This document shows positions 7,714 to 42,621 of a stretch of 56,730 nt of DNA, one piece after another (positions within the stretch are counted from its first letter, which is position 1; each line of letters begins with the position of its first letter). A program made the translations under genes and the position numbers. The notes under the pieces are model-generated. The model was not told the DNA's origin. It worked only from the letters and a program-made list of their open reading frames with translations, and made no database searches. This stretch comes from Nitrospira sp. (GTDB lineage: Bacteria > Nitrospirota > Nitrospiria > Nitrospirales > Nitrospiraceae), in assembly GCA_029865225.1 (NCBI GenBank), contig JAOUHJ010000014.1:1-56730 (forward strand), written 5' to 3'.

Positions 7714-7960
7714 AGGCTGGATGTCTAAATGGGCCGTCAGGCAGCCGGTCTCTCTTTACCTCATCATCGCTTTTCTCAGGCCCGTAAACCGCCCATATTG
7801 ATGGTCTCAGGGAAACCCATTGGGGTAGCCGAGCCGTACAGTTTCATCGAGGCATGCTGATCTCCGATCGTTCTCACATGTGCCTGAAGGTAGACGTCCC
7901 TGACCAAAATTGAGGGCTTGCGGGACCTACGTAAGAAGACTAGAATTAAATTCTCTCGCC

Positions 7961-17326: not shown

Positions 17327-18541
17327 ATGACTGACGGTCGTATGAAGCAGGACAACGAGAGACCATTCACCCAAGAGTTGATTCGCAGTTTAATGGTCTG
17401 TCTGATCATCGTAGTCGGGCTGGGTTGCGAGAACCGGTCCGCCGACACCACCACGATTAAGAAAGCTTCCTTTTCCTCGCAATCAGGGCTGTTGCGTCTG
17501 ACAACAGAAGAGGTATCCCGCATGCAGCTGGAACTTGTGCCGGTGGCGCAGGGGGAGCTTCTATTACACCGACAGTTTCCTGCAACCGTCCAAGCCAACC
17601 AAAACGAATTGGCCGAGGTCACGACCCTGATCCGTGGTCGGGTTGTGAAGGTCCATGTCGATGTTGGGCAGGACGTGAAGAAGGGTGCGCTGTTGGCGAT
17701 GCTCCACAGTGTGGACCTAGGCGTGGCGGAAGGAGAGTACCTGAAAGCTGGGGCGAGGGTGCATGAGGCGCAGTTGGCGTATCTTCGAGCCAAAGAACTG
17801 TACGAAAACAAGGCCATCAGTCTCGCCGAACTCCTGCGCCGTGAGGCCGCGATGAAGACCGCGCGAGCCGAAGTGCGTGAAGCACAAAACCGTCTGGAAC
17901 TGCTCGGTGTGCCTCAAAACGAGATCGACAGACTGGATCGGGACCATACGATTAAGGCCGACGTTTCGTTGCGCGCCCCGTTCGCCGGACGGGTGATCAC
18001 ACGCAACCTCACGCAGGGTGAAGTGGTTGAGACCGAGCAGAAGCTGTTTACCGTGGCGAATCTCACTGATGTGTGGGTGATCGGCAACGTACCGGAGAAG
18101 GACGTGCAATACATCCGAAAAGACCGGAAAGTCGACGTGATCCTGGCCGCTTATCCGCATGCCATTTTTTCGGGAACGATCACCTACATCGGCGATACGC
18201 TTAATCCGGCCACTCGTACTATGAGCCTACGGGTGACCGTGCCGAACCCGGATCGCCTGTTGAAACCGGAAATGTTCGCCATTGTCAGCGTGTACGGGAC
18301 CTCCAGCGAGGATGTGTTGAGCGTACCCCTCGCGGCTGTCCAAGACGGGCCTGACGGCAAGATGGTGTTTGTTCTACGGGAGCCTAGTGTCTTTGAGGTG
18401 CGGCCCGTGAAGTTAGGGCATGAAGAGGGAGACGTCGTCATGGTACTGGAGGGGGTCAAGGTTGGCGAGCAGGTTGTCACCAAGGGCTCTTTCGCACTCA
18501 AATCTCAAATGGAACGGGATAAGATCGAGCCCACGCCATGA
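17327..18541 (+). CDS. Heavy-metal RND efflux periplasmic adaptor (CzcB/CusB family)
   Basis: This membrane-fusion subunit links an inner-membrane HME-RND pump to an outer-membrane channel. The protein is 404 residues with a lipoprotein-like signal ending VGLGC (Cys34). A lipoyl/barrel-sandwich half follows (VTTLIRGRVVKVHVDVGQDV), then an alpha-helical hairpin of about 145-205 (YLKAGARVHEAQLAYLRAKE to QNRLELLGVPQNEID). Next come the returning lipoyl half (LRAPFAGRVITRNLTQGE), a beta-barrel (VWVIGNVPEKDVQYI; GTITYIGDTLNPATRTM) and a membrane-proximal domain. No N-terminal Met-rich or His-rich metal chaperone region is visible. The stop overlaps the pump start by four bases (ATGA), so the genes are coupled. 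An in-frame ATG at 17342 is an alternative start. Confidence 0.92.
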   Translation: MTDGRMKQDNERPFTQELIRSLMVCLIIVVGLGCENRSADTTTIKKASFSSQSGLLRLTTEEVSRMQLELVPVAQGELLLHRQFPATVQANQNELAEVTTLIRGRVVKVHVDVGQDVKKGALLAMLHSVDLGVAEGEYLKAGARVHEAQLAYLRAKELYENKAISLAELLRREAAMKTARAEVREAQNRLELLGVPQNEIDRLDRDHTIKADVSLRAPFAGRVITRNLTQGEVVETEQKLFTVANLTDVWVIGNVPEKDVQYIRKDRKVDVILAAYPHAIFSGTITYIGDTLNPATRTMSLRVTVPNPDRLLKPEMFAIVSVYGTSSEDVLSVPLAAVQDGPDGKMVFVLREPSVFEVRPVKLGHEEGDVVMVLEGVKVGEQVVTKGSFALKSQMERDKIEPTP

Positions 18542-21500: not shown

Positions 21501-21669
21501 GCTGGTGCTGGCGCAAGGGATTGGCGCCGAAGTTCAGCGGCCGCTTGCGACGGTCGTGATCGGGGGGCTCTTCACTTCGACAGCGCTGACGCTCGTTGTC
21601 CTACCAGTACTCTATAGTCTCTTTGGGGGACGTGAGATGAGCCAGGAAGAGGCGCCGGAATGGGTCTGA
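18538..21669 (+). CDS. Heavy-metal efflux RND pump (CzcA/CusA family)
   Basis: This proton-driven inner-membrane transporter exports metal ions through a tripartite complex. At 1043 residues it has the family length, with 12 expected transmembrane segments and two large periplasmic loops (about 35-340 and 560-870). The N-terminus (RQRILVIGLACLLSVVGVIA, IPIDAYPDVTNIQVQVLTDA) is the standard HME opening. The TM4 region reads AIAIGEIADGSVVVVENVYR. It keeps the proton-relay Asp and the VEN triad, but fits neither the CzcA-like DFGx3DGA nor the CusA-like AIGx3DAA class exactly, so the metal is undecided. No outer-membrane factor gene is found on either side, so a channel must be borrowed from elsewhere. 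Confidence 0.93.
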   Translation: MIASLLEFSLRQRILVIGLACLLSVVGVIAFESIPIDAYPDVTNIQVQVLTDAPGLSPEEVERFITYPLEIQMTGLPGLAEIRSLSKFALSQITMVFEDEVDVYLARQLVLERMIAAKERLPAGIEPVMAPIATGLGEVYQYYLDGPHAAEGDPKLTEAELTEQRTIQDWVLRPLLKSVPGVIDVNGMGGFVKQYQVLVDPAKLLKYDLTLNHIHEAVVKNNANVGGNVLERHANRSIVRGLGLIKGVDDIESIIVKEVGGTPVFVRDVAEVRIGHAVRHGAVVLNGEREVVAGIVLMLRGGNARQVVEAVKTKVDDIQQNNILPAGTNLIPFYDRIELVNAAIHTVRDALIEGIVLVVFVFFFFLGHVRSAIVVTVTLIVTPLVTFIVMEQFGLSANLMTLGGLAIAIGEIADGSVVVVENVYRHLAQSNGLKAKDTIEVVLRATKEVGRPILFGILVISVVFLPLMTLHGMEGKMFAPLAYTLVIALLASVVVTLTLAPVLASLFLRGDHPQETRLTRWMKHRYLPVLEWTLQHRKVVLVGSTAIVLASLTLVPFIGREFIPLLEEGALTPQIVRLPSVSLPESIEMEKQTHTAMLEFPEVRMAVSKIGRPEIAYTPEEPFESDPVVTLHDRSTWKTARTQSGLTDAIRKKLAEIPGISVLMSQPIQERVDELISGIRTECAIKLFGDDLDVLWHKAEEIASLLQQIKGVKDIKVEQTSGQPYLTIDIDRQKIARFGINVADVQEIITTAIGGKPATQVYEGERRFQLILRFPEPYRNSVASVGEIRVKAVSGALIPMSDLATIEMREGPVRISREQVKRRIYIGFNVVGRDIGGVVDEGRKKMATQVHLPVGYSVVWGGAFENMERANTRLMIVVPITLGLVFFLLFWAFHSLRYATLIIVNLPFALIGGVVSLWLTGQYLSVPASVGFIELFGLAVGNGIILVSYINQLRYEGRQVEEAILTGCSLRLRPVVMTMMTTLLGLLPLVLAQGIGAEVQRPLATVVIGGLFTSTALTLVVLPVLYSLFGGREMSQEEAPEWV

Positions 21670-27773: not shown

Positions 27774-28242
27774 GGTTCACCCCCATAGGTGCCCGAGAAT
27801 ATCTTCAGAATATGGAAAAGCAAGTTGAATGCCATGGCAGGAAGCATCCAGGAAAAGCGTTGTGATCTGCGCTCGCAGTATTCCAGTTTGTACGTAATTG
27901 TAACGAGTTACAGCCTAGAGTCGCATCGGTAGCGATAAGAAGTGCGGATGCCAGCGCCGGCGATGGATCTGTAGGAGGTGAAGGGTGCGGAGATTAGTGT
28001 TTCATAATGATACTAGGTAAAACACTGGCTCGAAGGTCTAGAACCTTAAGGGGTGAGGGAGGCGAAGGATTCAAAGGCGACCAGTTTCCCATGCCGGCCA
28101 TCGCATTGGGATCAAAGTCATGGTGCCTGTGCGTGGCAGATCGTAATGGAGTATAGTGGTCGCCATGAATCTCGGGCTGAAACGACATGGGCCGTGTATT
28201 GAATGACTAATGATCAATCGGTTTGTGGAGCAAGGAGTGACT
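27774..28242. other. Intergenic region with short palindrome and possible leader
   Basis: About 470 bp between the small minus-strand genes and the CBS gene. It holds an inverted repeat TGTAACGAGTTACA at 27899-27912 (6-bp arms, 2-bp centre), the size of a regulator site. It also holds a perfect AGGAGGT followed by a GTG and an 11-codon frame ending at 28020. Whether that frame is translated is unknown. No larger gene is visible. Confidence 0.4.
27899..27912. promoter_or_regulatory. Candidate operator palindrome
   Basis: TGTAAC-GA-GTTACA is a perfect 6+6 inverted repeat, 126 bp upstream of the ATG of the 104-residue gene and about 330 bp before the CBS gene. Its form fits a dimeric regulator site; no cognate regulator can be named. 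Confidence 0.3.
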
Positions 28243-29079
28243 ATGACTGAGTATGGGGGCGGAGCCGTTCAAGATTTTATGCATCGTTACCTGGAAGTGG
28301 TTCCTCGCAATTCAACGATTGTAGCTGCGGCCGAGAGGATGAGTGTTCGGCGGATCGGTTGCCTGCTCGTGGAGTCGGATGATCCCACAAGAGGTCCGAT
28401 CGGGATCGTGACGGAGGCGGATCTCGTACGGAAGGGGCTTGCGGAGGGCTTAGATCCAATGGCCACGAAGGTGGATCACGTTATGGTGAGCCCAATCTTG
28501 ACGATTGCCGGCGAGCGCACCATGTTGGATGCCAGTCAGTTGATGGAAACCCATCATGTGCGTCACCTTTGTGTGGAGGAGGCCGGTGAGATCGTCGGCA
28601 TCATGTCCGTGCGGGATCTCGTGCGATCGTTTGTGGATGCGGAAAGCGGTCCAGTCTGCGACCTTGATAAGGTATACCGTCCGCTGAGTGTCCTGATGGC
28701 GACCACGATTGCGACCATCCAGAGCGATGCCTGCCTTCGTGCATCAGCTGAGCTTATGCGAGACAGGCGAATGGGTTCATTGCTGACGATCGAGGCCGGC
28801 GAGATCGTCGGTATCGTGACCGAACGCGATTTGGTTTGGAAAGGGCTTGCCGGCAGCCGGGATCTGGGCGGCACTCACGTGAGTGCTGTGATGAGTTCTC
28901 CACTACTGGGCATCGATGTTAATCGCACCATACGCGATGCCAGCAAAGCGATGGCCGAACAGAGTGTCCGTCACTTGGCCGTGACGGAAAACGGCAAGAT
29001 CGTCGGGGTCCTCTCTGTACGGGACTTGGTGAAAATGGTCTCCATCAGGGATCGGCCCAGATTTCTCGGTAAGACATGA
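28243..29079 (+). CDS. Four-CBS-domain protein
   Basis: CBS domains pair to bind adenosyl nucleotides such as AMP, ATP or SAM and act as energy or ligand sensors. The 278 residues contain four CBS motifs in two Bateman pairs, about 5-65, 75-135, 145-205 and 215-275. They show the repeated GIVTEADLVRKGL, GIMSVRDLVRSF, GIVTERDLVWKGL and GVLSVRDLVKMV ends. No enzyme or transporter domain is attached. The ATG at 28243 follows AAGGAGTGACT, a strong ribosome site, and is preferred to the in-frame ATG at 28210. It is convergent with the M48 protease gene. A regulatory role is likely but the partner is unknown. Confidence 0.9.
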   Translation: MTEYGGGAVQDFMHRYLEVVPRNSTIVAAAERMSVRRIGCLLVESDDPTRGPIGIVTEADLVRKGLAEGLDPMATKVDHVMVSPILTIAGERTMLDASQLMETHHVRHLCVEEAGEIVGIMSVRDLVRSFVDAESGPVCDLDKVYRPLSVLMATTIATIQSDACLRASAELMRDRRMGSLLTIEAGEIVGIVTERDLVWKGLAGSRDLGGTHVSAVMSSPLLGIDVNRTIRDASKAMAEQSVRHLAVTENGKIVGVLSVRDLVKMVSIRDRPRFLGKT

Positions 29080-29196: not shown

Positions 29197-30141
29197 CTAC
29201 GCGGCGCCCATGCGTGACCGGAAGCGTTCGGTCAGGTAGGGAAACTTGCTGGCCTCTGTGTAGCGAGCCGCGACACCCTTCGCTCTGCCCAATCTTTCCG
29301 ACGTCGAGGGATGGGTTGAGAAGAACAGTGAATCCGCTGTCCCTTCCTGGCTCTGGAGGGTGGCGAGATAATCCCTGAGGCCGTTCGGATGATATCCCGC
29401 CCGATAGGCGAATTCGATGCCGTAGGTATCAGCTTCGAACTCCAGCTCCTTGTCGAGCCCTTTTTCAAACAACATATCTGTAGCCGCATCGATGACGTTC
29501 GAAAACAGCTGCGGATCCTTGTTCATGGCGCTCAGGCTGAACTCGGACACGTTCGCCAGGATTGTGCTTCGCTGGAGAGTCTTCAGCATATGTTTCTGCG
29601 TCACGTGCGCCACTTCGTGCGCCAGGACGCCGGCCAACTCCGCTTCGTTCTTGAGAGTCTTCAGCAATCCGATCGTGACGAAGATGTAGCCTCCAGGTGC
29701 CGCGAAGGCGTTCTGCTCCCTGCTGTTCAGAATGGCAAAGCGGTAGGTGAGTTCGGGCCGGTCGGAAACCTCCGCGACGGTTTTCCCGACCAGATTGACA
29801 TAGGTCGTGAGCGTTTCATCCTTGTATTCGCCGCCGAATCGGTTGAACGCCTCAATAGCGACGGCCTGGCCGATGGCGATCTCTTCTTCAACTCCGATCG
29901 GTTGGAGTGATTGAACGGCTTTGAGCCCCTTCTTGAAAAGACCGATATCCTTTTCCTTTGCCCCCAGCAATCCTCCGAGTCCATCGACCAACCCCTTGGG
30001 TTCTCCAGGCTGAGCTTGTCCCGTCCTTTGACTTTGCTTCTTTTCGGCAGATGGCTTGACTAATTGATCGAGAAAACTCCACGACCGATCGGCAGCCCCC
30101 ATAATTAAAACGATCGATAGTGTCGCAAGGGCCCATTTCAT
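29197..30141 (-). CDS. M48-family metalloprotease (exported)
   Basis: This zinc endopeptidase resembles the periplasmic BepA/LoiP group that checks outer-membrane protein assembly. The 314 residues begin with a signal peptide (MKWALATLSIVLIMGA). The zinc motif is HEVAH (His175, Glu176, His179), with a third ligand Glu in KELEFEADTYG (about 234-236). The segment QNAFAAPGGYIFVTIGLLKT is typical of the family. No TPR tail is present, unlike BepA. The ATG at 30141 has GGAGGTTGATC upstream and begins 2 bp after the SH3 gene stop, so it is the last gene of the five-gene operon starting at 42621. Confidence 0.92.
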   Translation of the reverse strand: MKWALATLSIVLIMGAADRSWSFLDQLVKPSAEKKQSQRTGQAQPGEPKGLVDGLGGLLGAKEKDIGLFKKGLKAVQSLQPIGVEEEIAIGQAVAIEAFNRFGGEYKDETLTTYVNLVGKTVAEVSDRPELTYRFAILNSREQNAFAAPGGYIFVTIGLLKTLKNEAELAGVLAHEVAHVTQKHMLKTLQRSTILANVSEFSLSAMNKDPQLFSNVIDAATDMLFEKGLDKELEFEADTYGIEFAYRAGYHPNGLRDYLATLQSQEGTADSLFFSTHPSTSERLGRAKGVAARYTEASKFPYLTERFRSRMGAA

Positions 30142-30143
30142 GA

Positions 30144-30659
30144 TCAACCTCCAGAAAATTCACCGACCGACCCTTCTCGCTGGAATTTGAGAAGATCTTC
30201 CCTGGAGATGGCACGGTCTTCCATTTTCTGCACTGCATTTCTGCTTGCGGGATCGATTTGTTTGGACTCGGCGTAATGCTCCGAGGTTTCTTTCAAGCCT
30301 CTGATGCTCCCCCCGGTGCTTGCCTCGCGAGCCGCGATGCGGGTCTCACCCGTCAATCCTGACAGCATGTCTCCCCCCCCTCCGCCGCCGACCTTCTGAT
30401 CGCTCAACTTGAACTTGAAGACCCACCCGGTCTTGCCGGACTGAGCCCGTATCTTATAATGGCGATCGCTTTTTTCGAGGACACGAACCTGATCTCCCAG
30501 ACGAAGCGTGTCCACCACCCGGGACATCGGCGACTTTTCCTCCGTCACCTTCACCTCATCCTTGCTGACGTACATCGTCTGGGCCGAGAGAAGACTGGGA
30601 ACCAGCAGCACCAATCCCACGATCGCCGTTGTAATAGATCGTCTCACTGCAAGCATCAT
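30144..30659 (-). CDS. Exported SH3-domain protein
   Basis: The 171-residue protein has a signal peptide (SITTAIVGLVLLVPSLLSA) and a bacterial SH3-type domain of about 28-88: TMYVSKDEVKVTEEKSPMSR, VVDTLRLGDQVRVLEKSD, GKTGWVFKFKLSD. A poly-glycine linker of six Gly follows, then a helical C-terminus (ETSEHYAESKQIDP). Bacterial SH3 domains often bind peptidoglycan or proteins. The Gly linker is encoded partly by a run of eight G on the coding strand (30373-30380), a possible slippage site. GAGGAG precedes two possible ATGs, 30659 and 30656. It starts 17 bp after the giant CHAT gene and belongs to the same operon. Confidence 0.85.
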   Translation of the reverse strand: MMLAVRRSITTAIVGLVLLVPSLLSAQTMYVSKDEVKVTEEKSPMSRVVDTLRLGDQVRVLEKSDRHYKIRAQSGKTGWVFKFKLSDQKVGGGGGGDMLSGLTGETRIAAREASTGGSIRGLKETSEHYAESKQIDPASRNAVQKMEDRAISREDLLKFQREGSVGEFSGG

Positions 30660-30676
30660 CGTCTCCTCACGCTAGA

Positions 30677-33600
30677 TTACCGATAATCTCCCACCAATGC
30701 CAGCCCTGCCCAGTAGGCCGGGTGCGGGAATTCCTTCTTGACCAACAATTGAGCTTGGCGAAGACTTGTCGCCTTATCCATCTTGGCGTAGTTGCGATAG
30801 AAGTGCTTCATCAGCACGGAGGTAGCTAGATCGTCCACGCGCCACAGGGCCGACACCAGAGCGTGGGTCCCGGCGTAGATAAAGGCCCGATTCAGGCCGA
30901 TCAACTCTCCGGCCTCCAGTTTGCCCAGACCTGTCTGACAGGCGCTCAGGGTGACGAGATCCGCCTGAATGTTCAAACCGAAGACCTCCCGCACCGTAAG
31001 CCGGCGATTGCTCGGATTCTGGGAGGCCAGCCAGAGTGACGACAGCAAGGGGTTGAGGTCATCAAACTCTCCATGGGTCGCCAAGTGGATGACCCCGTAG
31101 TTCGCGATGTTGTCGACGATCCATTCCTTCGTTGCCTTGGCTCCTACCAGGACGTCAAGGTCGGGAAAGTCCCACCGGATGCTACGGGCCTCAAGCTCCG
31201 CCAGCGGGAGCTGGTAGTTATAATTGCCGAGGTCAGGATTTCCGATCGCGAGCACCTTCGTGAGCTTGGTTGCGCTCCGCTTGGCGAAGGTGAACTGCAA
31301 CACCGAAGCCGCCGGGGAGTAGAACAGCGGGTAGGTGTCGATCAGGGCTCCCTCAGGACCGGAAAGGGCGGCGAAGGACAGGAAGTGCAGTGGTCCGTCC
31401 GGAATAATCCCCAAATAGCGGAGGCCAACCAGATCCGCCAAGGCCGGGGCGATCAACAATTTGGAGAGACGTCCCAGCTCCTCGGAGACGGACTCCAGGC
31501 GTTGCACCCGCTCACGATAGGCACGGACTAGTAGCTCGATCTCCCCTGCGGCAGTTGGAACCTCAAAAAACTTCGTGCCCGAGGCAGTCACCAGCCAGAT
31601 ATAGACTTTATCCCCGGTCACCTTGTACGACAGAAGTCCGACACCCGGCTCGAGCAGCGCCTGCACCTGGTCCTGCCTCAATGGATCGACGGCCACAAAA
31701 CTGCTCAGTTGCGGGCTACTCCGCTTCAGTTGCACTAATGCCTCTTCGTAGGCCGCTTTTGTCTTGCGCACTCGGTCCACGAGATCCTGAGGAGGGGCTG
31801 CGAACGAAGCGAGCTCACGCGACGATGCATCTAGTTGGGCCTGCAAGGTCATGACCTGGTCGAGCTCTTGTTGATCCCTCTCCGTTTTTACCTTGAGCTT
31901 CTGATTTCCTAACAGGTCGATGAAGCTCCTCGATCGTGACCGCTCGAGATAATTGAAGGCCTCTCCAGGACGTCCGAGTTCGATCAGGAGGGTGATCGTG
32001 TCACGGTACAGATCCTCAGTCTTCGTCTGAAAACTGTTGCGAAACTCCTCGATCTTGAGAGCGGCGCGCATGCTTTCGACGATTCCCACTGCATCGGCGT
32101 ACCGGCCGACCGCCTCCTCCTTCCTTCCGATCAAGCGAAGCACGGCGCCGTGCCCGGCTGCCGCACGCCACAGGACTTCTTTCATATGGTGCCGCTTGGA
32201 GAGGTCGTAGGTGCGTTGATAGTAGTCGATTGCCGCTTCGTAACCACCGGTTTCTCGATGGACGTTGCCGAGCTCTAGTAGAGCCTTGGCCCAGTTATCG
32301 ACATTGTTGATCGCAGCGCTGTGCCGCTCCGCCGCTTCAAAATGCGCTCGCGCATCGGCATGGCGGCCCAGCTTCATGAGAGAGATGCCGATATTACGAT
32401 GGTCGTAACCCAATCCCCATCGGCTGTTCATCTTCTCGTCGATGATCTTGGCGAGTGTGAACTGTTCAATGGAAGCCTCAATCTGGCCCCGGTCACGCAG
32501 CATGAGCCCAAGATTGTTGTGAGAGGAGGCTCTTTCAGTCTTGATGTCCACTCGCTTCGCGGTGGACAACGCCTGCTCCGCATAGACCAGCGCCTTGTCC
32601 AGGTCGTTGAGGGTCCAGTAGAGAAGCGCCTTGGTGTTTGCGATCATGATGGGAAGCTGAGGATCATGAGATGTTTCAGCTTCCTTGGTTGCAGCATCGA
32701 GGTGATCGAACGCCTCTTGATACCGTCCCCTGAACCAACACGTATTGGCCAAGTACAGCGATCCAGTCGCCAGTACAAAGGGATCTTTGATTTCCTCACC
32801 GATGCGGCGTCCTTCGATATAATTCCGATCAGCCTCATCGAACAGGCCGGTCTTCTCATAGGTCAGGCCGATCTCGTACAACGTCTCCGCTTGCAGGCGA
32901 CGCGCTCCTTGGTCCTTATAGATAGCCAACGCAGCCGTAAACCCCTCGCGGGCGCGCTCGTACCGACCAAGACGGAGATAATCGATTCGGCCAATCCGGC
33001 GGTGCTGCATCGCCATATCCTGTACCTCTCCCAGCTCTTGATACAGTTGCAAGGATTGTCCGAATGCATCGAGGGCATCCTCGTAGACGCCCATGTTCTC
33101 CTTCACCACTCCCAGGGTGGCGATGCCCTCGGCGAGGCGATCGAGCTCATCCTGCTTGCGCCACAGGGCGATGGCGGATTCGAGATGTTTGATGGCCGAT
33201 TCGAACTCCTCCAGCCTGGAGTAGAGAATGCCCAACCGGTACAGGGCCCCTGGTTTGGCCCGTTCATCTCCGGTCTGATCGATATGCTCGACGAGCTTTG
33301 TCTGGTGAAAGACGGCCGTCCGATAGTCGCCGACCCTGAAGGCGGTGTCGACCGCCACATCCGTCAGCTTGCGGAAGTCTTGGACTGCCTCGGTGAAACG
33401 GAGAAGAGAAAGGGCGTCTTCAGCACGGTGCAGTGCGGCTTCGTACCTTTCTGCCCGGTAGGCGGCGACCGTCTCAGCCACAGCATGCGTATATTCGAAG
33501 GCGGCAAAGGCCGCCTTCTGATCCTGGTCCATACCGACATATCCATAAACCTGAACCGACCCGTTGGTCGGATGTTTCTCTGTGGCCGACACAGCACGAG

Positions 33601-36600
33601 ATGCGGTCATGGCTGCCTGGTCCGTTCGTTGCCATTGCACATGGCTCATGAACGATTCCACGAAGGCCCTGCCTTCCTTGGGCAGTAAGCCGGTCGCCAC
33701 GACGACATGGGCAAACCCTGTTCGAATAAGAGCCGGTGCGAGAATCAAGCGGATCGCTTCTCGATCGATCCCAGGATCCAGAATGATGGCGGTATGACGA
33801 AGTTTTTCAAACAGGCCGGCAAGTGGAACTGAGTTGCGCACGCCCAGCTCGGAACCGACGACAAAGCCATTGTTCTGATGTGGGCCGACCGTGACCAATA
33901 CGTGCCGTCCCGCGAGCAACGCCCTGTCCCGGTCCATGTCACCAGTCAGAGAGGCGATGGAGAACTCAGTCCCAAGGCTTTCTTCCTTCAGCGGAAGGTT
34001 CCCGGCGACAGCAACTCTGGAGGTGAACAACGTCCGGAGATGATAGGCGTTGAGCACGTCATAGACCGTCGCAACTTCCACAATGGTCGCCTTCTTCGGG
34101 AGAAGAGGTGTTACCAACGGCCGCAGATCAGACGAAACGGAGAGATAGATGGCTGTGGCCTGGTCGATCGACAATTCAGAGCCGGTCAGACCCAGTGGTT
34201 GACCTTCCGATCGTGGGACACGCATATGCCGCGCGGTGCTGCCATCATGAAGAAACAGGTGCAGGCTGTTCAATCCCGGCACGACCTTGAGGTACGGGGT
34301 GGAAGGACTGACTACAGTGGATACAACATGGGGGGACGGCTCGTATTGATATAAGTACGAGACCGACCAGGGATGCTCCTCCTGCAGGGCAAAGAGCAGG
34401 TCTTGAAAGTTGGCGGAGAGCCCGTCCAGGTCTTGAGGCCGTCCTTCTTGGATGGCGTGCTGCATCTGCTGAAAGATCATCCTGAGCTCGTCCGCGTAGT
34501 CCCCGAGGCCGGTCAGGAAGAAATCGGTCCCAAGCCGGTCGTACAGTTGAACCGCCACCTTTCGCATCGCGAGCTGCTCGCTGATCGAAAAAGCCTGCTC
34601 AATGTCTCCACGCTCCGCCAGGAGATCGGTGATGAGCGCGGTCAGCCTGTCGTGCAACGGCAGCGTACCCAGTCCGATGGGTCGCGAGAGGACTTGGGGT
34701 GGCAACGCCAAGAGCCTTTTCACCGACTGTCTGAGCAAGGGTTCTCGCTTCTCCGCTTGGTCGACCTGCTCTGCTTCCAGCAACGGAGGCAGCCAGGAAG
34801 CGGCCGAAGGGCGCTCATTCAGAAGATCGGCCACCTCGGTCTTCAACTGCTCACGGACGGCGACCTTCCCGGTCTCTTCTGCGAGGTCGAAGAGATTCAG
34901 TTTCAGCATGAGGCGCGCATGCGCCACTTCTTCTGGGGACAAGACGTGTTCCGTTTCCACAAGATGGAGCGCCGTTCGCAAGAACGAGACAGCATCTTGT
35001 CGCGCTCGGTACACCCGATAGAGATCCTGCGTGCTGTCCTCTACTGAACGGCCTGATGCACCTTCCACGTAGTCCATGTCGGCAAGGAGACAAGAGACGT
35101 TCGCCAAGAGATAGAGGATCTGACGATCCGGTTTCGTCTCTTGCAGGACCCCCTGCAGTCCATCGACAAGGGTCTCAATCAACGAGGGCTTCACGGTTGA
35201 GCCGGCCAGACGACGTTCCAAGGCCAGGCGTGAAAGATTGTAAAGATTCACCTTTGTGCCATAGCTCAGACCCAGCTCACGTGTGCGGGTGAGGGACTGT
35301 TCCTGATATGCCATGCCGTCGTCGGTCTGCCCCAACGCGTGGCTGAGGACAGCCAATCTATTCAGTACCACCGCCTCTTCGGTCCGTGCCGAAACCGCTT
35401 GGAGCCCGGTTCCGCCGGCGGAAATCAACGCCAATTTCTTCAGGTAGTATTCCTTGGCCTGGGCCGGCTCCGACAGCTCCTCGTAGGTACGGGCGATATA
35501 GGTGAACATCAACTTCTCTTCCCCGCGACGATCGAAGCCGGATGCCGCTCCGCTGCCTGTCTCGCCAAGCGCAATCTGCACTTGCAGGAGTCCTTGTCCC
35601 CCCTCCTTCTGTTTCACGCCGAACTGGTGTAACGCCTCCAGGCTGTCGAGTTGGCTCTTTAAGGCCCGCTTGAGCGTGCTGCGTGAGAATGCCGAGTCGG
35701 TTATGCTCATGTTGTAGAGATTGACGCCGATGTTTCGTCGCAGGCGGACCAGGTTCGCGGTCGTGCCCATCCGGATGTTGAGATCCAAGGCCTCGGAAAA
35801 ATATTTGACCGCGCGCGAGTAATGGCCCGCATCCTGTAGTGATAGGCCGATTCGCTCAAGCAATTCCGCTGTGAGATCTTCCTTGTCCTTGGGCATGAGC
35901 ATGAGCGCCCGTTCATACTGGGCGATCGATTCCTCCGTTTTGCCTGTCTTGAAGCAGGCCTCCCCATAACTCTTCCGGTAGAGCAGCTCGCGCATGACAT
36001 CCCTGTCCGCTATCCCCGTTTCACTCCGGCGCGCATAGTGGCGGTAGGCCTCGGCGTAGTTGCCGAGTCCCATGTAGGTGTTGCCGAGATTTAACAGTAG
36101 ATTGCGCTCCACGTCAGGGAACTGGAAGCCGTCGTTGAGCTCGAGCGCGATTCGATACTCCCGTTCCGCTTGCTCCAAGGCGCCGGCTTTGCCCATGCGC
36201 TCAGCCTGCTCGTACGCCCATCCCAACGTCTGGTGAAAATACGATACCCTGGGATTTCTCTGGGTCGCCTTCTCGATCACCTCAATAACCCGCCCGATGT
36301 CGGGGGGGGTGGAATAGGAGAGCGCCAGCCCCAGACCATACCAGTACGAGGGACTGTCCGGAGCCTTGCCGGTGAGGTCTTCGTAGACGTGCCGGACCTC
36401 CTCTGTTTCCTTCAACATCACCTTTGTTTCGATATAACCTCGGTGGGCTTCAATCGAATCAGGATAGGTGTCGATTATCCCACGCAGGCGCTTGGTGGCG
36501 ATGCGGACTTCACCAAGTTCCCGTTTCCTGATCGCGCTTCGCACGGACTGTAGGACCGTGAGGTTCCGCGCCTGCTCAAGTTCCTCAAGGCTGCGTCCCG

Positions 36601-38434
36601 TGAGACCCGTGACCGCCTCGTAAGCTTTCGCAGCTTCTTCATACTGCTCTGCTGCCGTGAGCACCGCTCCCTTCTTCCGGTAGGCATCCGCCACCAGAGT
36701 CGTCTGGTCCGGAAACTCCTCAATAGCCCGGTCCAAGAGCTCGATGGTCCTGGCTGTCTCACCCCGCTCGTGGTAACGATCCGCAGCGCGCAGGAGGGCT
36801 GACGCGGCGAGATAGGGAAGCGCGCGGTGTCGATCAGCGAGTTCCGTTAAGGACGCGATGGCCTTTCGGAAATCTTCCGGTTGCTCGGCGATCCCTACGG
36901 CGCGCGCCACCGCACGACGTCCCCAGAAACTCTGTTCACCGAATGCGGTGATCACATCGATGAACACTTTCAGCAGTTTGTCCTCTTCACCGAGCCGCCG
37001 GTATACTTGTGCGCGGGCAAATAGGCCTTTGGCTCGAACTTCCTTGTCCTTGGCTTCGTCAACCCTGCTCAGGAAGGTCAGAGCCGTTAACGAATCGTCC
37101 GCCAGGAGATGGAGCCGACCGGCCTCCAAGAACGCAACGTCACGGACCGTATCGTCTTGTCCCTCGGCTGAGGCCGCAGCGAGAAGTTGCTTGGCCAGCC
37201 GATCGACCGTTTTCTTGATCTCGGCTGGACTCAGGAAGGGGACCTGCTCCTCCAGATCGATGACGGGCCACGAGAGACGATAGAGGACACCAAGCTTCCC
37301 CTGAGCGGATCGATAGCGAGCCAGGATCTCCTTGGCTGCCGCGTATCGCCGCGCCTCACGCAAGAGATCCACGAGCGCCAGGTCGAATTCGGTTTGCTCC
37401 GACAACGGAAGGTGCGGGGCAAGGTTTATAGAAATATTGGTGAGGGTGACCAGCGCAGCCTGTATCTCCCCTCGATCTAGCTGGATGGCAGCCAACTCAC
37501 GGGCGCGCGACATATTCGAATAGGTCTGCAAGAAATCAGATAGATGGAGCCGGAAGATGTCCTGCCGCTTCAGATCGGAGTAGTAGATGTAGTTCCCTGC
37601 AGCGGCTGGATAGAGATGAAATTCCTGGCCGGGGGTGAGACGGTACAAGGCCGTTCGTTCTCCGGTCGAAACATCCCATTTCAAGAGATAGAGAGAAGAT
37701 TCATCGTCCGCATCGACGGTGCCGTCTTGGTTCGTGTCTTCTTGATAACGGCAGAAGACCACTGTGTTCGCGTCGACGAAGGAGGGCCACGCATCCACGA
37801 ACTCGCCGCTCGTGAGGGAGAGCGGCTTGTCCGGCAAGGAAGGGTCGACAGCCAAGAGCTTCCGGCCGTCCGAGTAGACAATTCTCCCGCCGGGACCTAT
37901 GGCAAAGGAGAAGGCGCTCTCAACGATCTGTTCGGATTGCCTTGTTGCGAGGGACATGCTGACGATGCCTCGCGCACGTTTGTCGGGGGCTTCGCGCAGA
38001 AAGTACACCGTCTCTCCTTCGCCCCAGGCAGGCGCCAGGTCCCCGCCGGTCTCGTCGGTGAGACGAGTCTCCCTGCCGGTGGGGACATCAAGGAGAAAGA
38101 TGTCCCCACGAGGGTCGGTGCGATAGGACACGTACAGCAACGAACTTCCGTTCGCATTCAAGGCCGGTGACGTGTCCTTACCAGGATGGCTCGTCAATCG
38201 TCGGGGGAGCGAGAACATCCCCGCGAGAGACTTGAGCCAAATGTCAGCAGTTCCGTTTTGTTCAGAGACGAACGCCAGGAAGCGCCCGTCGGCGGAGGGA
38301 GATCCGGCGTAATCAAGCGCCGGATGCGCGGTGATCTTTTCGTCGGCACCGACGGAGCCGACACCGATGAGGAGGGTAAGCTGCAACGCCGTCGCTGACA
38401 ACGCTAGGAAGTGCGGTCGAATCGGCCTCCACAT
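30677..38434 (-). CDS. Giant exported TolB-propeller/TPR/CHAT protein (about 2585 aa)
   Basis: From ATG 38434 the protein has 2585 residues. A signal peptide (FLALSATALQLTLLIGVGSV) leads to a PD40/TolB-type beta-propeller (about 30-310; PSADGRFLAFVSEQNGTADI). The propeller includes an EF-hand-like loop DTNQDGTVDADD. Long TPR arrays occupy about 320-1300 and 1640-2200, with a degenerate CHAT-like module between them (about 1360-1600). The C-terminal CHAT caspase-like domain (about 2250-2585) keeps the catalytic His2454 in VIHLATHGEFDD and Cys2499 in TLSACQTGLGK. CHAT domains are caspase-like proteases or protease-like switches, usually activated through their TPRs. The N-terminal export signal makes this a periplasmic or surface version, which is unusual. 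It is the third gene of the operon. Confidence 0.9.
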   Translation of the reverse strand: MWRPIRPHFLALSATALQLTLLIGVGSVGADEKITAHPALDYAGSPSADGRFLAFVSEQNGTADIWLKSLAGMFSLPRRLTSHPGKDTSPALNANGSSLLYVSYRTDPRGDIFLLDVPTGRETRLTDETGGDLAPAWGEGETVYFLREAPDKRARGIVSMSLATRQSEQIVESAFSFAIGPGGRIVYSDGRKLLAVDPSLPDKPLSLTSGEFVDAWPSFVDANTVVFCRYQEDTNQDGTVDADDESSLYLLKWDVSTGERTALYRLTPGQEFHLYPAAAGNYIYYSDLKRQDIFRLHLSDFLQTYSNMSRARELAAIQLDRGEIQAALVTLTNISINLAPHLPLSEQTEFDLALVDLLREARRYAAAKEILARYRSAQGKLGVLYRLSWPVIDLEEQVPFLSPAEIKKTVDRLAKQLLAAASAEGQDDTVRDVAFLEAGRLHLLADDSLTALTFLSRVDEAKDKEVRAKGLFARAQVYRRLGEEDKLLKVFIDVITAFGEQSFWGRRAVARAVGIAEQPEDFRKAIASLTELADRHRALPYLAASALLRAADRYHERGETARTIELLDRAIEEFPDQTTLVADAYRKKGAVLTAAEQYEEAAKAYEAVTGLTGRSLEELEQARNLTVLQSVRSAIRKRELGEVRIATKRLRGIIDTYPDSIEAHRGYIETKVMLKETEEVRHVYEDLTGKAPDSPSYWYGLGLALSYSTPPDIGRVIEVIEKATQRNPRVSYFHQTLGWAYEQAERMGKAGALEQAEREYRIALELNDGFQFPDVERNLLLNLGNTYMGLGNYAEAYRHYARRSETGIADRDVMRELLYRKSYGEACFKTGKTEESIAQYERALMLMPKDKEDLTAELLERIGLSLQDAGHYSRAVKYFSEALDLNIRMGTTANLVRLRRNIGVNLYNMSITDSAFSRSTLKRALKSQLDSLEALHQFGVKQKEGGQGLLQVQIALGETGSGAASGFDRRGEEKLMFTYIARTYEELSEPAQAKEYYLKKLALISAGGTGLQAVSARTEEAVVLNRLAVLSHALGQTDDGMAYQEQSLTRTRELGLSYGTKVNLYNLSRLALERRLAGSTVKPSLIETLVDGLQGVLQETKPDRQILYLLANVSCLLADMDYVEGASGRSVEDSTQDLYRVYRARQDAVSFLRTALHLVETEHVLSPEEVAHARLMLKLNLFDLAEETGKVAVREQLKTEVADLLNERPSAASWLPPLLEAEQVDQAEKREPLLRQSVKRLLALPPQVLSRPIGLGTLPLHDRLTALITDLLAERGDIEQAFSISEQLAMRKVAVQLYDRLGTDFFLTGLGDYADELRMIFQQMQHAIQEGRPQDLDGLSANFQDLLFALQEEHPWSVSYLYQYEPSPHVVSTVVSPSTPYLKVVPGLNSLHLFLHDGSTARHMRVPRSEGQPLGLTGSELSIDQATAIYLSVSSDLRPLVTPLLPKKATIVEVATVYDVLNAYHLRTLFTSRVAVAGNLPLKEESLGTEFSIASLTGDMDRDRALLAGRHVLVTVGPHQNNGFVVGSELGVRNSVPLAGLFEKLRHTAIILDPGIDREAIRLILAPALIRTGFAHVVVATGLLPKEGRAFVESFMSHVQWQRTDQAAMTASRAVSATEKHPTNGSVQVYGYVGMDQDQKAAFAAFEYTHAVAETVAAYRAERYEAALHRAEDALSLLRFTEAVQDFRKLTDVAVDTAFRVGDYRTAVFHQTKLVEHIDQTGDERAKPGALYRLGILYSRLEEFESAIKHLESAIALWRKQDELDRLAEGIATLGVVKENMGVYEDALDAFGQSLQLYQELGEVQDMAMQHRRIGRIDYLRLGRYERAREGFTAALAIYKDQGARRLQAETLYEIGLTYEKTGLFDEADRNYIEGRRIGEEIKDPFVLATGSLYLANTCWFRGRYQEAFDHLDAATKEAETSHDPQLPIMIANTKALLYWTLNDLDKALVYAEQALSTAKRVDIKTERASSHNNLGLMLRDRGQIEASIEQFTLAKIIDEKMNSRWGLGYDHRNIGISLMKLGRHADARAHFEAAERHSAAINNVDNWAKALLELGNVHRETGGYEAAIDYYQRTYDLSKRHHMKEVLWRAAAGHGAVLRLIGRKEEAVGRYADAVGIVESMRAALKIEEFRNSFQTKTEDLYRDTITLLIELGRPGEAFNYLERSRSRSFIDLLGNQKLKVKTERDQQELDQVMTLQAQLDASSRELASFAAPPQDLVDRVRKTKAAYEEALVQLKRSSPQLSSFVAVDPLRQDQVQALLEPGVGLLSYKVTGDKVYIWLVTASGTKFFEVPTAAGEIELLVRAYRERVQRLESVSEELGRLSKLLIAPALADLVGLRYLGIIPDGPLHFLSFAALSGPEGALIDTYPLFYSPAASVLQFTFAKRSATKLTKVLAIGNPDLGNYNYQLPLAELEARSIRWDFPDLDVLVGAKATKEWIVDNIANYGVIHLATHGEFDDLNPLLSSLWLASQNPSNRRLTVREVFGLNIQADLVTLSACQTGLGKLEAGELIGLNRAFIYAGTHALVSALWRVDDLATSVLMKHFYRNYAKMDKATSLRQAQLLVKKEFPHPAYWAGLALVGDYR

Positions 38435-38447
38435 CACGTCCGCCTTC

Positions 38448-39038
38448 TCATCCTTGCGGTTTCTGAATCCATGTTCCTTCCTCCAGCTGCACGAAGTCGC
38501 CTGGGCGAGCACGATCACGATTGAGCGCGGCGAAGGTCCCCCGTATCTTTGGCATGTCCTGCTGGGTGAGTTTTTCGTTGGTCGCGAGGATCCGTTGCAT
38601 GAGGACCTCCCGGTCTGTGTTTTCTTCGTCCACGAGATTTGTTACGAACGATTGCCGGTCCGAGGCAATCTTGTCCGGCGCCACGATCGTGACACCCCCT
38701 ACGTTGTTCTCACCCAAGATCCCTTGAGCCTTGAGGCGATCGATGTCGTCTTTGTTGAAGGCGGACCGTTGCATGGCTCGGATCGCTGCCTCTTTCCCTG
38801 GAGGCAACGCGGGTCGCGCGACAAGTTTCCCTTCTGGGTCGATATACCGAACTGAAGCGACGAGGAGTACTTCCTGCGAGAGTTCTTGGTAGGTCCCCAG
38901 CACTTGGTTCTCAAGCGCCGTCTTTTCATCGACCACCGTGACTCCGACGAGCGGCCCGCTGCAGCCGAGTGCGGCCATCGAACAAAGCGCGAGGCACTGA
39001 CGAAACCACATGTTCCGAGGCGACCGAATGCGTGCCAT
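38448..39038 (-). CDS. DUF1318 (YdbL-like) lipoprotein
   Basis: The 196-residue protein has a lipoprotein signal ending AALGC (Cys26) and a C-terminal DUF1318 domain like E. coli YdbL: VDEENTDREVLMQRI, KLTQQDMPKIRGTFAALNRD, RARPGDFVQLEEGTWIQK. YdbL is about half this length and is not a lipoprotein, whereas its operon partner YnbE is a lipoprotein. Here an N-terminal region of about 95 residues (TVVDEKTALENQVLGTYQEL) carries the lipid anchor, so one protein may combine both roles. It starts 34 bp after the YdbH-like gene and ends 13 bp before the giant CHAT gene. ATG 39038 has GGGA about 6 nt upstream; 39011 and 39050 are alternatives. Confidence 0.8.
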   Translation of the reverse strand: MARIRSPRNMWFRQCLALCSMAALGCSGPLVGVTVVDEKTALENQVLGTYQELSQEVLLVASVRYIDPEGKLVARPALPPGKEAAIRAMQRSAFNKDDIDRLKAQGILGENNVGGVTIVAPDKIASDRQSFVTNLVDEENTDREVLMQRILATNEKLTQQDMPKIRGTFAALNRDRARPGDFVQLEEGTWIQKPQG

Positions 39039-39072
39039 GACGGTTCCCATCTGACCCAGCAAGGGCCTCTGT

Positions 39073-42000
39073 TCACTGCAAAACAAACTCACCCTCCTGA
39101 TCCACCCCGTAGTGCTCGGCCCCCACCACTTCCATGATACGCCGGATCATGTTCCAATGGGGAATGTTCTCTGTGAAGTTCTGAACCTGTTTGATCTGGC
39201 CGATCGGGATGCGGTCCATCTTGAATCGTGACAGCAGTCCTTCTTGGAACAGGATCTGCAAGCCGACCAGTCCCTTGGACAGGGTGACCTGCGCGGAGGA
39301 AGGATTCGCCAGCTTCACCGCGGAGCGTGCGCCGACGATCGAGGGGTTGGATCCCTTCTGGTCAAGGAATCGCAAGACTCGATCCAGTCCGTCTTGGCCT
39401 ATCCTGGACAGAGAGAGGTCCAGCTTGCTTCCACCGAGATCCAGGCGACCGCTGCTTGCATCGAAGAGGACCGACGCAGTCAGAGTCCCGTCGATCAGGC
39501 TGTCCCCCCGTATCTGCTCTGCCAGCGGCAACAGTCGATTCATGTCGATCCTCGTTGCTTCAAGGCGCATGTTCAGTCCGAAGCCCTTTCCTCCTGTGAG
39601 GACAACCTCGCCCCCAAGCCCTCCGTCAAGCATGGTCATAGCCAGATCCTGAAGGACGAATCGATTACGATCGAAGAAGAGACCGGCCGAGAGATCCTCA
39701 GCCTGCAGCGCTCCAGCCTCCACCTGCCTAATATGGATGTGTTGTCTTGAGGGTGATGCAGCCCGGAGATCAGGAAGCAGTCGCGTGGGGGTGAACGAGG
39801 ACTCGGGAGTATGGCCGTTGAGCGCCGGTATCCACTGGAAGACCTTCCGGACCTCGATCGCTCCATCGAACTCTTCGACATGGTTCGAGTCCTTGGTCAA
39901 CGACAGCCGACGAGGAAGCAGACTCAGGCGCACATCAAGAGGCCCACGCTCTCTCTTGAGCAGATTCATGCTGAATCCGGCGCGTCCCGATCCAATAAGG
40001 CCGTATGATCGGGCGACATCCTGAAACTTATCAAGGTCGATATTCGCGTTGGAACGCATCTTCACAAAGACAGGTCCGAGCAGTGTGGGCAATGGTTTGT
40101 CCTTCCGTGTCAGGAGGCGTTTGACTCCCGATACCTCCCCTTCCAGCTTCGCTTCTACACCGTCGGCGCCGACGATGAGCCGGTCAAGCGTGAGATCGTC
40201 AAAATCCTCGGCTGATAGTCCGAGATCGACCGACAATTTGTTGAGCTGTTTGATCGGAAGACCGCTTCCCATGTCGAGCCGATTCACCTGAACCTTCACC
40301 GAAGAGGTGATCTTCTGACGATCTTTGTGTTCCATGGAAATGCGGACCGCGCCATTGACGCCGGTGATTCTTTGGTCCCGGTACGCGCCGGCGATGTCGT
40401 GCATGTCCAAGTTCATGAAGGCCGTCACCGGAATCTGGAGTTCGGCGACCTGCTCCGGCCTCGGTATGGTGCCGGATCCACGGGCCTCCAGAGACAGGCG
40501 TCCGGAGGGTGCCACTTCAACAAGAGCTTGCACATCCGATCCCGATACATGGTTTCCAAGTCGGCCGATATTCAACGAGGGTATCGAGAGGTCCACGGAG
40601 AACTGCTGGTTCCGGGATCGAAACTCTCCCTTGATGATGCAATCCAGGAGGTCCTCGGCGGCGACCCGCAGCGACTTGAGACGGTATGACCCTTCCATGA
40701 TGTCCGCTTCGATATCGCTCGATGCCGTCATGCGATCGAGTCGTCCGCTGATGCCTGGCGCGAGGTATCGGGTATGGCGGGTTTCCATTTCAAGCCGGTG
40801 CGAGGCCGTGAGACGGCCTACTCCCATCTCGGGCGTGACGCGTCCCTTGAGTCGGCCGTTGAATTTCAGTAAGGCGGTCCCAAGCGCGAGCGATGCTCCT
40901 TGTTTCATCTCAGCGAGGCCTATCACGCCTGATAGCGTGGCCATCAATGACTCGGCCTTGGCCCTGTAGGTCGCATGCATATCAACGGCCATTCGGTCCA
41001 GTCTTCCTGATACATCCGAGGCTGCCAACGTTGCATGCAGACCAGCCGCCTGGAGAGAGGCATCCGCGCTGGCCCGTTGCGGTCGCAATTCGGGATCAAG
41101 CGTTCCGGTCAGGTCAAGCGTAAGCCGCTGGCGACCGCCTCGTGAAGCGAGCGTGATTCCTCCAATCACGGAGCGAGGTAGAGCCGAAAGAAGCTTCGTG
41201 ACATCGGTTTCGACGGAAGCCTTCATCCCGAAAGGGCGCTCATTCGCAACCCCATCGAGGGCTCCGACCTCACCGCTGGCAAGGAGATGCACTATGTCGC
41301 CGACGCGGGCCGCCACCTTGGCCAACGAGAAGGACATGTACGTCTCGTCCGCGGACGCGTCGATTTCAAGCTCGACCGGCTCCGAGACGGCCTGGCCGGA
41401 GGGCGGCAGGGTGGCAGATAGCGTGCCTGTCATCGTCATGTGAGCGGAGAGCCGCCCGGATTCGGCGCGATCGGCTTGAATCTCGACGGCAAGATTGCGC
41501 AGGGAGTTTGTCCCCGAGGACGCGGCCCTCGAATCAATCGACAAGTCAGCACGAATTGCGCGAGGCAGGTTAGCGCGGACAAGGGCCTCACCCGCATGCA
41601 AGCGAAATGACGTGGGCTCGAGGGCAAACTTGAACGCGGGAACGGTTCCTCGTATGTCGATGCCTCTGAGGTCCACCTCGACCGTTCCGTCAAAGCCTCT
41701 TTCAGTCTGACTTCCTTTGATTGTTCCCGTCGGCGAAATCGTGCCGGCCACGTGTGCGTCCATAAGCGGCGGAGGCAGAAAGGGTTGTGCCAACAGCAGG
41801 AGCCGTTGGAGGTCGATGTGCCCTTCCAGAACCGAGAGGGTCACTTCTCTGGAAGAGACCATATGATCGAGCTGGCCTTTCACGGAGAGACTCATGACCG
41901 GATCAGACCGGACATCCAGGCGTTGGATGACGAGTCGCTCTGCCGGGAAATCGACCGCCAGGACGAACTCGAGGTGCAGCGGAAACCGCAACTGTTGCTT

Positions 42001-42621
42001 GCGCAGGACGACCTCAATATCGGCGACGTCGAAGGTTCCCGACAGATCGCCCATATTGGGGCCTGCGCTGAGGCCGGCTTTCACATCAACATCGCGTAGG
42101 GTGAGCCGGAGGCCGTCTTGACCGGCTACGCTGATCTGAGAGTTTTCTATCCGAATGGTGTCGATGCCGACTGCGAGTGGGAGCGTGGGGAGAGTGGCCG
42201 GAGCGGGCGGTTTTGCGGAAGGTTCCGTCTCGGATTTGACGGGCAAACGAGTGAGATCGAGAAACACCTCGGCGCGGGTGAGCACCAGTTCGTTGACGGA
42301 GAGCTTTCCGTGGAGGAGATGCTGGAGATCATACCGAAGCACCAGACGGTCGAACCGGGCGAAGCGCGTTCCGTCCCGTTCCATCTCCACTGCGCCGAGC
42401 CGGATACCGCTCAGCAGCTCCCATTCCAGAGACGCGATCCGCACATGGCCCTGGAGTTGTTGCGAAAGAACGTGCTCGAGTTCCCGACGGACTTCTTCCG
42501 CAGGAAACCAGTACCGCACCGCCACAAGGACGCCCGCCAGCATGAGCACCAGAACGCCGCAGACGAGGGCCAGGATTTTGAGTATTTTCATTGCCGACCG
42601 TCGCCCCACCGTCTTGCGCAT
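39073..42621 (-). CDS. AsmA-like intermembrane protein, YdbH family
   Basis: The 1182-residue protein has one N-terminal transmembrane helix (ALVCGVLVLMLAGVLVAVRY) and a long beta-rich periplasmic body. This is the design of AsmA-clan proteins (TamB, YhdP, YdbH), which form hydrophobic grooves carrying phospholipids from inner to outer membrane. An AsmA-type opening (LSQQLQGHVRIASLEWELLS) is followed by repeated amphipathic strands. The C-terminus (KMDRIPIGQIKQVQNFTENI) fits the YdbH C-terminal domain. The next gene is YdbL-like, as in the E. coli ydbH-ynbE-ydbL operon, which strongly supports the assignment. There is no separate ynbE. ATG 42591 is an alternative start. It is the first gene of the five-gene operon. 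Confidence 0.85.
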   Translation of the reverse strand: MRKTVGRRSAMKILKILALVCGVLVLMLAGVLVAVRYWFPAEEVRRELEHVLSQQLQGHVRIASLEWELLSGIRLGAVEMERDGTRFARFDRLVLRYDLQHLLHGKLSVNELVLTRAEVFLDLTRLPVKSETEPSAKPPAPATLPTLPLAVGIDTIRIENSQISVAGQDGLRLTLRDVDVKAGLSAGPNMGDLSGTFDVADIEVVLRKQQLRFPLHLEFVLAVDFPAERLVIQRLDVRSDPVMSLSVKGQLDHMVSSREVTLSVLEGHIDLQRLLLLAQPFLPPPLMDAHVAGTISPTGTIKGSQTERGFDGTVEVDLRGIDIRGTVPAFKFALEPTSFRLHAGEALVRANLPRAIRADLSIDSRAASSGTNSLRNLAVEIQADRAESGRLSAHMTMTGTLSATLPPSGQAVSEPVELEIDASADETYMSFSLAKVAARVGDIVHLLASGEVGALDGVANERPFGMKASVETDVTKLLSALPRSVIGGITLASRGGRQRLTLDLTGTLDPELRPQRASADASLQAAGLHATLAASDVSGRLDRMAVDMHATYRAKAESLMATLSGVIGLAEMKQGASLALGTALLKFNGRLKGRVTPEMGVGRLTASHRLEMETRHTRYLAPGISGRLDRMTASSDIEADIMEGSYRLKSLRVAAEDLLDCIIKGEFRSRNQQFSVDLSIPSLNIGRLGNHVSGSDVQALVEVAPSGRLSLEARGSGTIPRPEQVAELQIPVTAFMNLDMHDIAGAYRDQRITGVNGAVRISMEHKDRQKITSSVKVQVNRLDMGSGLPIKQLNKLSVDLGLSAEDFDDLTLDRLIVGADGVEAKLEGEVSGVKRLLTRKDKPLPTLLGPVFVKMRSNANIDLDKFQDVARSYGLIGSGRAGFSMNLLKRERGPLDVRLSLLPRRLSLTKDSNHVEEFDGAIEVRKVFQWIPALNGHTPESSFTPTRLLPDLRAASPSRQHIHIRQVEAGALQAEDLSAGLFFDRNRFVLQDLAMTMLDGGLGGEVVLTGGKGFGLNMRLEATRIDMNRLLPLAEQIRGDSLIDGTLTASVLFDASSGRLDLGGSKLDLSLSRIGQDGLDRVLRFLDQKGSNPSIVGARSAVKLANPSSAQVTLSKGLVGLQILFQEGLLSRFKMDRIPIGQIKQVQNFTENIPHWNMIRRIMEVVGAEHYGVDQEGEFVLQ

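Follow-up and report, generated by a model that had tools for sequence, protein, structure and literature searches.

One of the closest described systems is YdbH-YnbE-YdbL of E. coli, in which the AsmA-type protein has a beta-groove and is anchored in the inner membrane by its N-terminus; its gene lies directly upstream of a DUF1318 gene, and it has a lipoprotein partner. The same features recur in the locus reported here, which occupies 29197-42621 on the minus strand of the window, i.e. the whole stretch of 56,730 nucleotides of Nitrospira DNA that was analysed. However, the AsmA-like protein of this locus is not recognised by the YdbH model PF11739 and is longer than YdbH (1182 against 879 residues), the DUF1318 protein is itself the lipoprotein while E. 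coli has a separate one, YnbE, and the two genes are here linked to genes for CHAT, SH3 and M48 proteins. In E. coli too, it is an open question how the delivery of lipids to the outer membrane is sensed and regulated and what partners AsmA-type bridges require (PMC12977461). LPD-3 and Vps13 share the fold of the N-terminal 330 residues, but they are eukaryotic and cytosolic and lie between organelles, and the likeness is one of fold alone.

For the CHAT protein, several known proteins offer partial likenesses. The TPR-CHAT protease of Craspase (Csx29) also has a TPR array followed by a CHAT protease, whereas it is cytoplasmic and CRISPR-bound, with one CHAT domain and with neither propeller nor export signal. 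Separase likewise is a giant chain with long helical repeats and two caspase-like domains, one active and one degenerate; it is however eukaryotic and cleaves cohesin, while the protein studied here is exported and has its two domains several hundred TPR residues apart. DdvA (PDB 8rot, 8rw5) is another membrane-linked bacterial protein of the CHAT fold, and by sequence it matches the active domain only weakly (E 0.035). It differs in being titled a transmembrane anti-sigma factor in its structure entry. We know of no bridge genes beside that of DdvA. The nearest functional precedent is found in NlpI-Prc and LbcA-CtpA, where a periplasmic protease with a TPR lipoprotein scaffold responds to phospholipid transport by the AsmA family: overproduction of AsmA-family proteins in P. 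aeruginosa lowers CtpA activity, and phospholipid transport affects NlpI-Prc (PMC12569750). Those proteases are separate proteins of another family, unlinked to the bridge, while here TPRs and a cysteine protease form one chain in the bridge operon.

Within the open-licence literature on DUF1318, on CHAT in the periplasm and on AsmA with CHAT, we find no account of a bridge combined with a CHAT protein. Within that limited scope this agrees with the sequence-only reading of the locus, which knew of no described system of this composition. The families are each known and their combination appears undescribed; since the YdbL-type bridge module is recognisable, the system is not categorically new.

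The five genes and the probable bridge module

Open reading frames show five genes on one strand, separated by gaps of 34, 13, 17 and 2 bp when the starts are taken at 39038 (DUF1318), 38434 (CHAT), 30659 (SH3) and 30141 (M48). The layout described in the sequence-only reading is thereby reproduced in its gaps, reading-frame limits and sizes, and the TPR, CHAT, SH3, M48, DUF1318 and TolB-like parts that it named are borne out by domain scans. Scans for promoters and terminators gave results near shuffle expectation and are left unused.

The first gene (39073-42621, minus strand) encodes the AsmA-like protein of 1182 residues, for which the ATG at 42591 is the probable conserved start. The AlphaFold model, built from 14 sequences, has a mean pLDDT of 82 and a pTM of 0.52, with one N-terminal, predicted transmembrane helix (residues 8-38) followed by about 60 beta strands that form a groove. 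The N-terminal 330 residues match LPD-3 with a Z of 11.2 (rmsd 5.0, 309 residues aligned) and the N-terminus of Vps13 with a Z of 9.9 (rmsd 4.4, 170 aligned). In Foldseek the top matches are ApoB100 and LptD, lipid-handling proteins of unrelated families, and TamAB is also listed; no YdbH structure is among the fold matches, an absence which proves nothing. An N-terminal anchor, a chorein-like start and a long beta-groove are thus predicted together, as in bridge-like lipid transfer proteins, and this anchored fold suits an intermembrane bridge of the AsmA type. In sequence, matches to the AsmA, YhdP and DUF748 models cover the N-terminus only and stay below the cut-offs (38 bits against 46 for YhdP, 24.7 against 29.8 for AsmA), while the Chromatiaceae relative attains 30.2 bits with Pfam AsmA (cut-off 29.8). 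PF11739 matches neither the window protein nor four relatives, with E. coli YdbH at 3e-291 as the control, and hmmsearch of the family against PDB sequences returns nothing useful. Direct comparison with E. coli YdbH, YhdP and TamB yields no convincing alignment, the hhalign E-values being 0.08, 0.17 and 9e-4 (over 55 columns), and the name YdbH is therefore kept as a label only. Of the YdbH-type AsmA-like protein proposed earlier, then, the bridge-like fold is supported and the membership of the YdbH family by sequence is not. We consider it probable that this protein is a lipid bridge, and lipid transport by the system is likely.

The second gene (38448-39038, minus strand, with its ATG at 39038 inside an open reading frame of 38448-39092) encodes the DUF1318 (YdbL-like) protein, which matches PF07027 at 44.9 bits against a cut-off of 27 (1.8e-11). 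Its DUF1318 region aligns along E. coli YdbL up to the C-terminal ARPGxxVQxxxGxWxxK (hhalign probability 88%, E 3e-6). In the relatives read, a Cys follows the hydrophobic stretch with no Asp at +2, so that an outer-membrane lipoprotein is expected, and the DUF1318 lipoprotein of the earlier reading is thus supported in both YdbL domain and lipobox. After the lipobox Cys there is a motif TALENQVLG, whose general form T-x-L-E-x-Q-[VL]-[LM]-G is kept from Nitrospira to Myxococcota. At most loci the DUF1318 gene adjoins an AsmA-type gene. A separate small YnbE gene between the two is not seen, as no reading frame fits between 39073 and 39038, and the single DUF1318 protein seems to carry the roles of both YnbE and YdbL.

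The last two genes encode smaller exported proteins. The bacterial SH3 protein (30144-30659, minus strand; 171 aa) matches SH3_3 at 1.5e-7, and has a signal peptide by inspection and hydropathy. The M48 metalloprotease (29197-30147, minus strand; 316 aa) may start at the TTG at 30147, which overlaps the SH3 stop, or at the ATG at 30141, which leaves the 2-bp gap. It matches PF01435 with 110 bits against a cut-off of 20.3 (1.3e-31), and its HEXXH motif reads HEVAH, with HEVAH, HEIAH or HELAH in relatives. The nearest solved structure is 3c37 (1.5e-31), followed by BepA, the M48 protease of outer membrane quality control. Although M48 domain, HEXXH and export are common to both, an assignment to BepA was rejected, since the protein scores 103 bits against an equivalog cut-off of 570 and its 316 residues contain no TPR domain.

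The giant CHAT protein

The third gene (30677-38434, minus strand) encodes a protein of 2585 residues in the order propeller, TPR, degenerate CHAT domain, TPR and active-type CHAT domain. The N-terminal TolB-like beta-propeller region, at approximately 37541-38338, is detected by PD40 (2.2e-13), and the CHAT domain by PF12770 with 188.6 bits against a cut-off of 24 (2e-55). Nearly every relative read by inspection has an export signal: the Delta/Myxococcota proteins carry a lipobox, those of Nitrospirota and Pseudomonadota a signal peptide. The protein thus does not look like an independent cytoplasmic one, in line with its earlier description as exported.

The C-terminal CHAT domain (31480 down to 30686, residues 2319-2583) is the most conserved portion of the giant protein in the alignment of full-length relatives. 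Its dyad consists of His2454 (codon 31073-31075) and Cys2499 (codon 30938-30940), each kept in 25 of 25 full-length relatives, and by these residues the domain is a putatively active, intact His/Cys protease. The other domain, at about residues 1364-1636 (33527-34345), was found by fold. Modelled alone, residues of about 1215-1672 give a pLDDT of 88 and a pTM of 0.90, and the fold matches include separase (Z 17.2), DdvA (Z 17.2), TPR-CHAT (Z 17.0) and also gingipains. In the alignment of relatives the positions where the catalytic His-Gly and Cys would stand show no conservation, and no Cys is invariant, so we regard it as a degenerate protease domain; the window protein has neither His-Gly nor Cys at these places. 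Compared as profiles in hhalign, the degenerate and active domains give no sequence match (E 0.09), and their likeness is by predicted fold only. By fold, therefore, the chain holds a further caspase-like domain that lacks catalytic residues, in the manner of the separase tandem.

Other genes adjoin the CHAT gene in some lineages. In five Delta/Myxococcota genomes it directly follows, and often overlaps, a gene for a methyl-accepting chemotaxis receptor (MCP) with HAMP and MCP domains, as identified by Pfam in four and by reading of the frames in the fifth. Two Magnetococcales have hybrid kinases of the form GAF-HisKA-HATPase-receiver-receiver-Hpt just upstream of CHAT (L177:3445-6675 and L180:10105-13413).

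Distribution and inheritance of the gene set

Among the 79 Nitrospira genomes, the AsmA-like gene is present in 8 and the DUF1318 lipoprotein in the same 8, while a long CHAT gene is present in 9, the ninth being a fragment at a contig end. Five of them, including the window, have the full order AsmA-DUF1318-CHAT-SH3-M48 on one contig, with identities to the window of 48-84% in the relatives, and the other carriers fit this order up to contig ends or gaps. One genome (G155; loci L063 and L064) has its CHAT gene split over three frames, with X also in its AsmA-like protein; the split probably reflects assembly gaps. In a sample of 148 genomes across the phylum, the AsmA-like gene, the DUF1318 lipoprotein and a full-length CHAT occur only in G000 and G133, and no genome has just one of the three at that level.

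Searching 84,980 species with the DUF1318 alignment yielded 40 loci. The genome scan uses two exact peptide patterns and is expected to miss distant members. Overall, the gene set is found, in order or unlinked but co-occurring, in Nitrospira, other Nitrospirota, Ca. Nitrotoga (beta), a Chromatiaceae MAG (gamma), Magnetococcales (rearranged) and Myxococcota/'Deltaproteobacteria', and spans at least three phyla. The five-gene order itself is also present in several Nitrospirales/Nitrospirota, in Candidatus Nitrotoga BS (Betaproteobacteria) and in the Chromatiaceae MAG; the gene order in related genomes, on which the earlier reading had rested its test, is kept there and well beyond. Two genomes, G133 and Nitrotoga M5, have the last four genes together and the AsmA-like gene elsewhere in the genome. 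The Magnetococcales place SH3 and M48 ahead of AsmA-DUF1318, with CHAT directly after, after a gap, or nearby on the other strand. One Delta/Myxococcota group has the DUF1318 and AsmA-like genes facing each other with CHAT elsewhere, and a second Myxococcota group (n=7) has AsmA-DUF1318-CHAT head to tail with short overlaps. The SH3 and M48 neighbours are absent from most Myxococcota loci, which makes them accessory. At one Myxococcota locus (L199:4390-5220) CHAT is followed directly by a gene for an SH3 lipoprotein, and SH3 may have joined the bridge-CHAT system there independently.

Both the AsmA-like and the long CHAT proteins are present in all 24 tested genomes carrying the DUF1318 lipoprotein. 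Of 195 Myxococcota genomes, 14 have a long CHAT, all among the 19 with the DUF1318 lipoprotein (Fisher p 1.4e-17, overstated since the genomes are related); a fifteenth genome matched only with the generic C-terminal part and is left out of the count. The five-gene linkage is more than chance, for the set is kept across phyla; a chance run of same-strand genes is ruled out by the conservation with rearrangement and by the unlinked co-occurrence. In both the CHAT and the AsmA-like tree the two Nitrotoga, including the strain with unlinked genes, nest inside Nitrospirales with support of 0.99-1.0, which points to a joint transfer of the two genes into Nitrotoga. The two trees otherwise largely agree, the joint transfer being the exception. 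Correlations of pairwise distances (0.71-0.94) are not taken as proof, because species descent alone yields such values. We hold it highly probable that AsmA-like, DUF1318 and CHAT form one system.

Proposed mechanism and its rivals

Our main reading, to which we give a probability of about 0.42, is that the operon encodes one cell-envelope machine in which a protease is coupled to a lipid bridge. The AsmA-like protein would be anchored in the inner membrane and carry phospholipids or similar lipids along its hydrophobic groove across the periplasm, and the DUF1318 lipoprotein in the outer membrane would combine the jobs of YnbE as a tether and YdbL as a helper. The giant CHAT protein may act as a periplasmic scaffold whose propeller and TPRs hold partners by direct contact. 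Its first CHAT-fold domain, presumably inactive, would probably be regulatory or substrate-binding, as in separase, while the likeliest role of the last is to cleave a periplasmic or envelope protein in a manner coupled to the state of the bridge. Judging from their families, trimming or clearance of products would be the probable task of the M48 protease, and the SH3 protein probably holds the assembly on peptidoglycan. Against the main reading weigh the lack of a convincing match of the AsmA-like protein to PF11739 or to any AsmA protein of E. coli, the low pTM of its whole model and its top Foldseek matches to unrelated families, the linkage of CHAT to a chemoreceptor gene in place of the bridge in one Myxococcota/delta group, which may point to signalling, and the absence of SH3 and M48 from most Myxococcota loci. 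The coupling of the CHAT protease to the bridge is proposed on the precedent of NlpI-Prc and LbcA-CtpA, and taken for itself we regard it as tentative. More tentative still is the wider view of a dedicated machine in at least three phyla, in which the bridge and an exported separase-like protease would be physically coupled and regulated proteolysis beyond the cytoplasm would report on the flow of lipid or the integrity of the bridge. The combination of genes suggests a tie between outer-membrane lipid supply and protein cutting. It also offers a candidate partner set for AsmA-type bridges, defined by cross-phylum conservation, in which the protease can readily be mutated to an inactive form. 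In addition, it brings to the periplasm, a compartment in which proteases of this kind are little known, a separase-like protease that is intact and accompanied by a degenerate domain.

The CHAT protein might instead be mainly an assembly scaffold for the bridge, with proteolysis confined to its own maturation or to minor quality control. Most of its 2,585 residues are indeed propeller, TPR and degenerate CHAT domain, and the AsmA and CHAT genes are found in the same genomes even where they are not linked; but the catalytic residues invariant in all 25 relatives, in the best conserved part of the protein, make this rather doubtful. Another view is that, as proposed for GspN, the cargo moved or displayed by the AsmA-like protein is protein or lipoprotein and not bulk phospholipid, with CHAT processing it at the surface. 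It draws on the match of the N-terminus to the NCBIfam GspN_Lepto model (3.9e-11, below cut-off), on GspN being an AsmA-like protein that serves surface lipoproteins (PMC12802150), and on the gingipains among the fold matches of the degenerate domain. No secretion gene or conserved cargo gene is however seen at the loci read, and the DUF1318 protein YdbL has its gene next to that of YdbH, a phospholipid factor, so we consider this view unlikely.

The most concrete rival is a signalling device, in which the exported CHAT protein reports the envelope state to a membrane receptor (a chemoreceptor, hybrid kinase or anti-sigma factor) and the bridge is the object sensed. The MCP genes before CHAT, which in one Myxococcota/delta group take the place of the bridge linkage, speak for it together with the hybrid kinases of the two Magnetococcales and the likeness of the degenerate domain to DdvA, an anti-sigma factor by its PDB title. 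On the other hand, no conserved receptor, kinase or sigma gene is seen at the Nitrospira, Nitrotoga and second-group Myxococcota loci, and the rival is on balance quite unlikely. As CHAT proteases act in defence and conflict, e.g. in Craspase (PMC9935389) and in DGR-linked systems (PMC10907252), an envelope-damage or anti-phage device that kills the cell once the bridge comes under attack can also be imagined. Among PADLOC defence models only a generic TPR one matches, and the broad agreement of the CHAT and AsmA trees, with the joint transfer as the exception, contrasts with the fast turnover usual in defence islands; we hold this rival to be very improbable.

Some further features of the neighbourhood were noted. 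The operon adjoins a cluster resembling, by motifs, a [NiFe] hydrogenase operon with maturation genes at four loci of Nitrospira relatives. Elsewhere in the window, two plus-strand frames (7910-11041 and 18538-21669) each encode exactly 1043 residues, a size typical of RND efflux pumps. A CBS-domain-like gene (28210-29079, plus strand; about 70% identical) lies downstream of M48 in the window, while at five loci of Nitrospira relatives it is on the opposite strand and upstream of the AsmA-like gene, showing that either the operon or this gene was inverted or moved.
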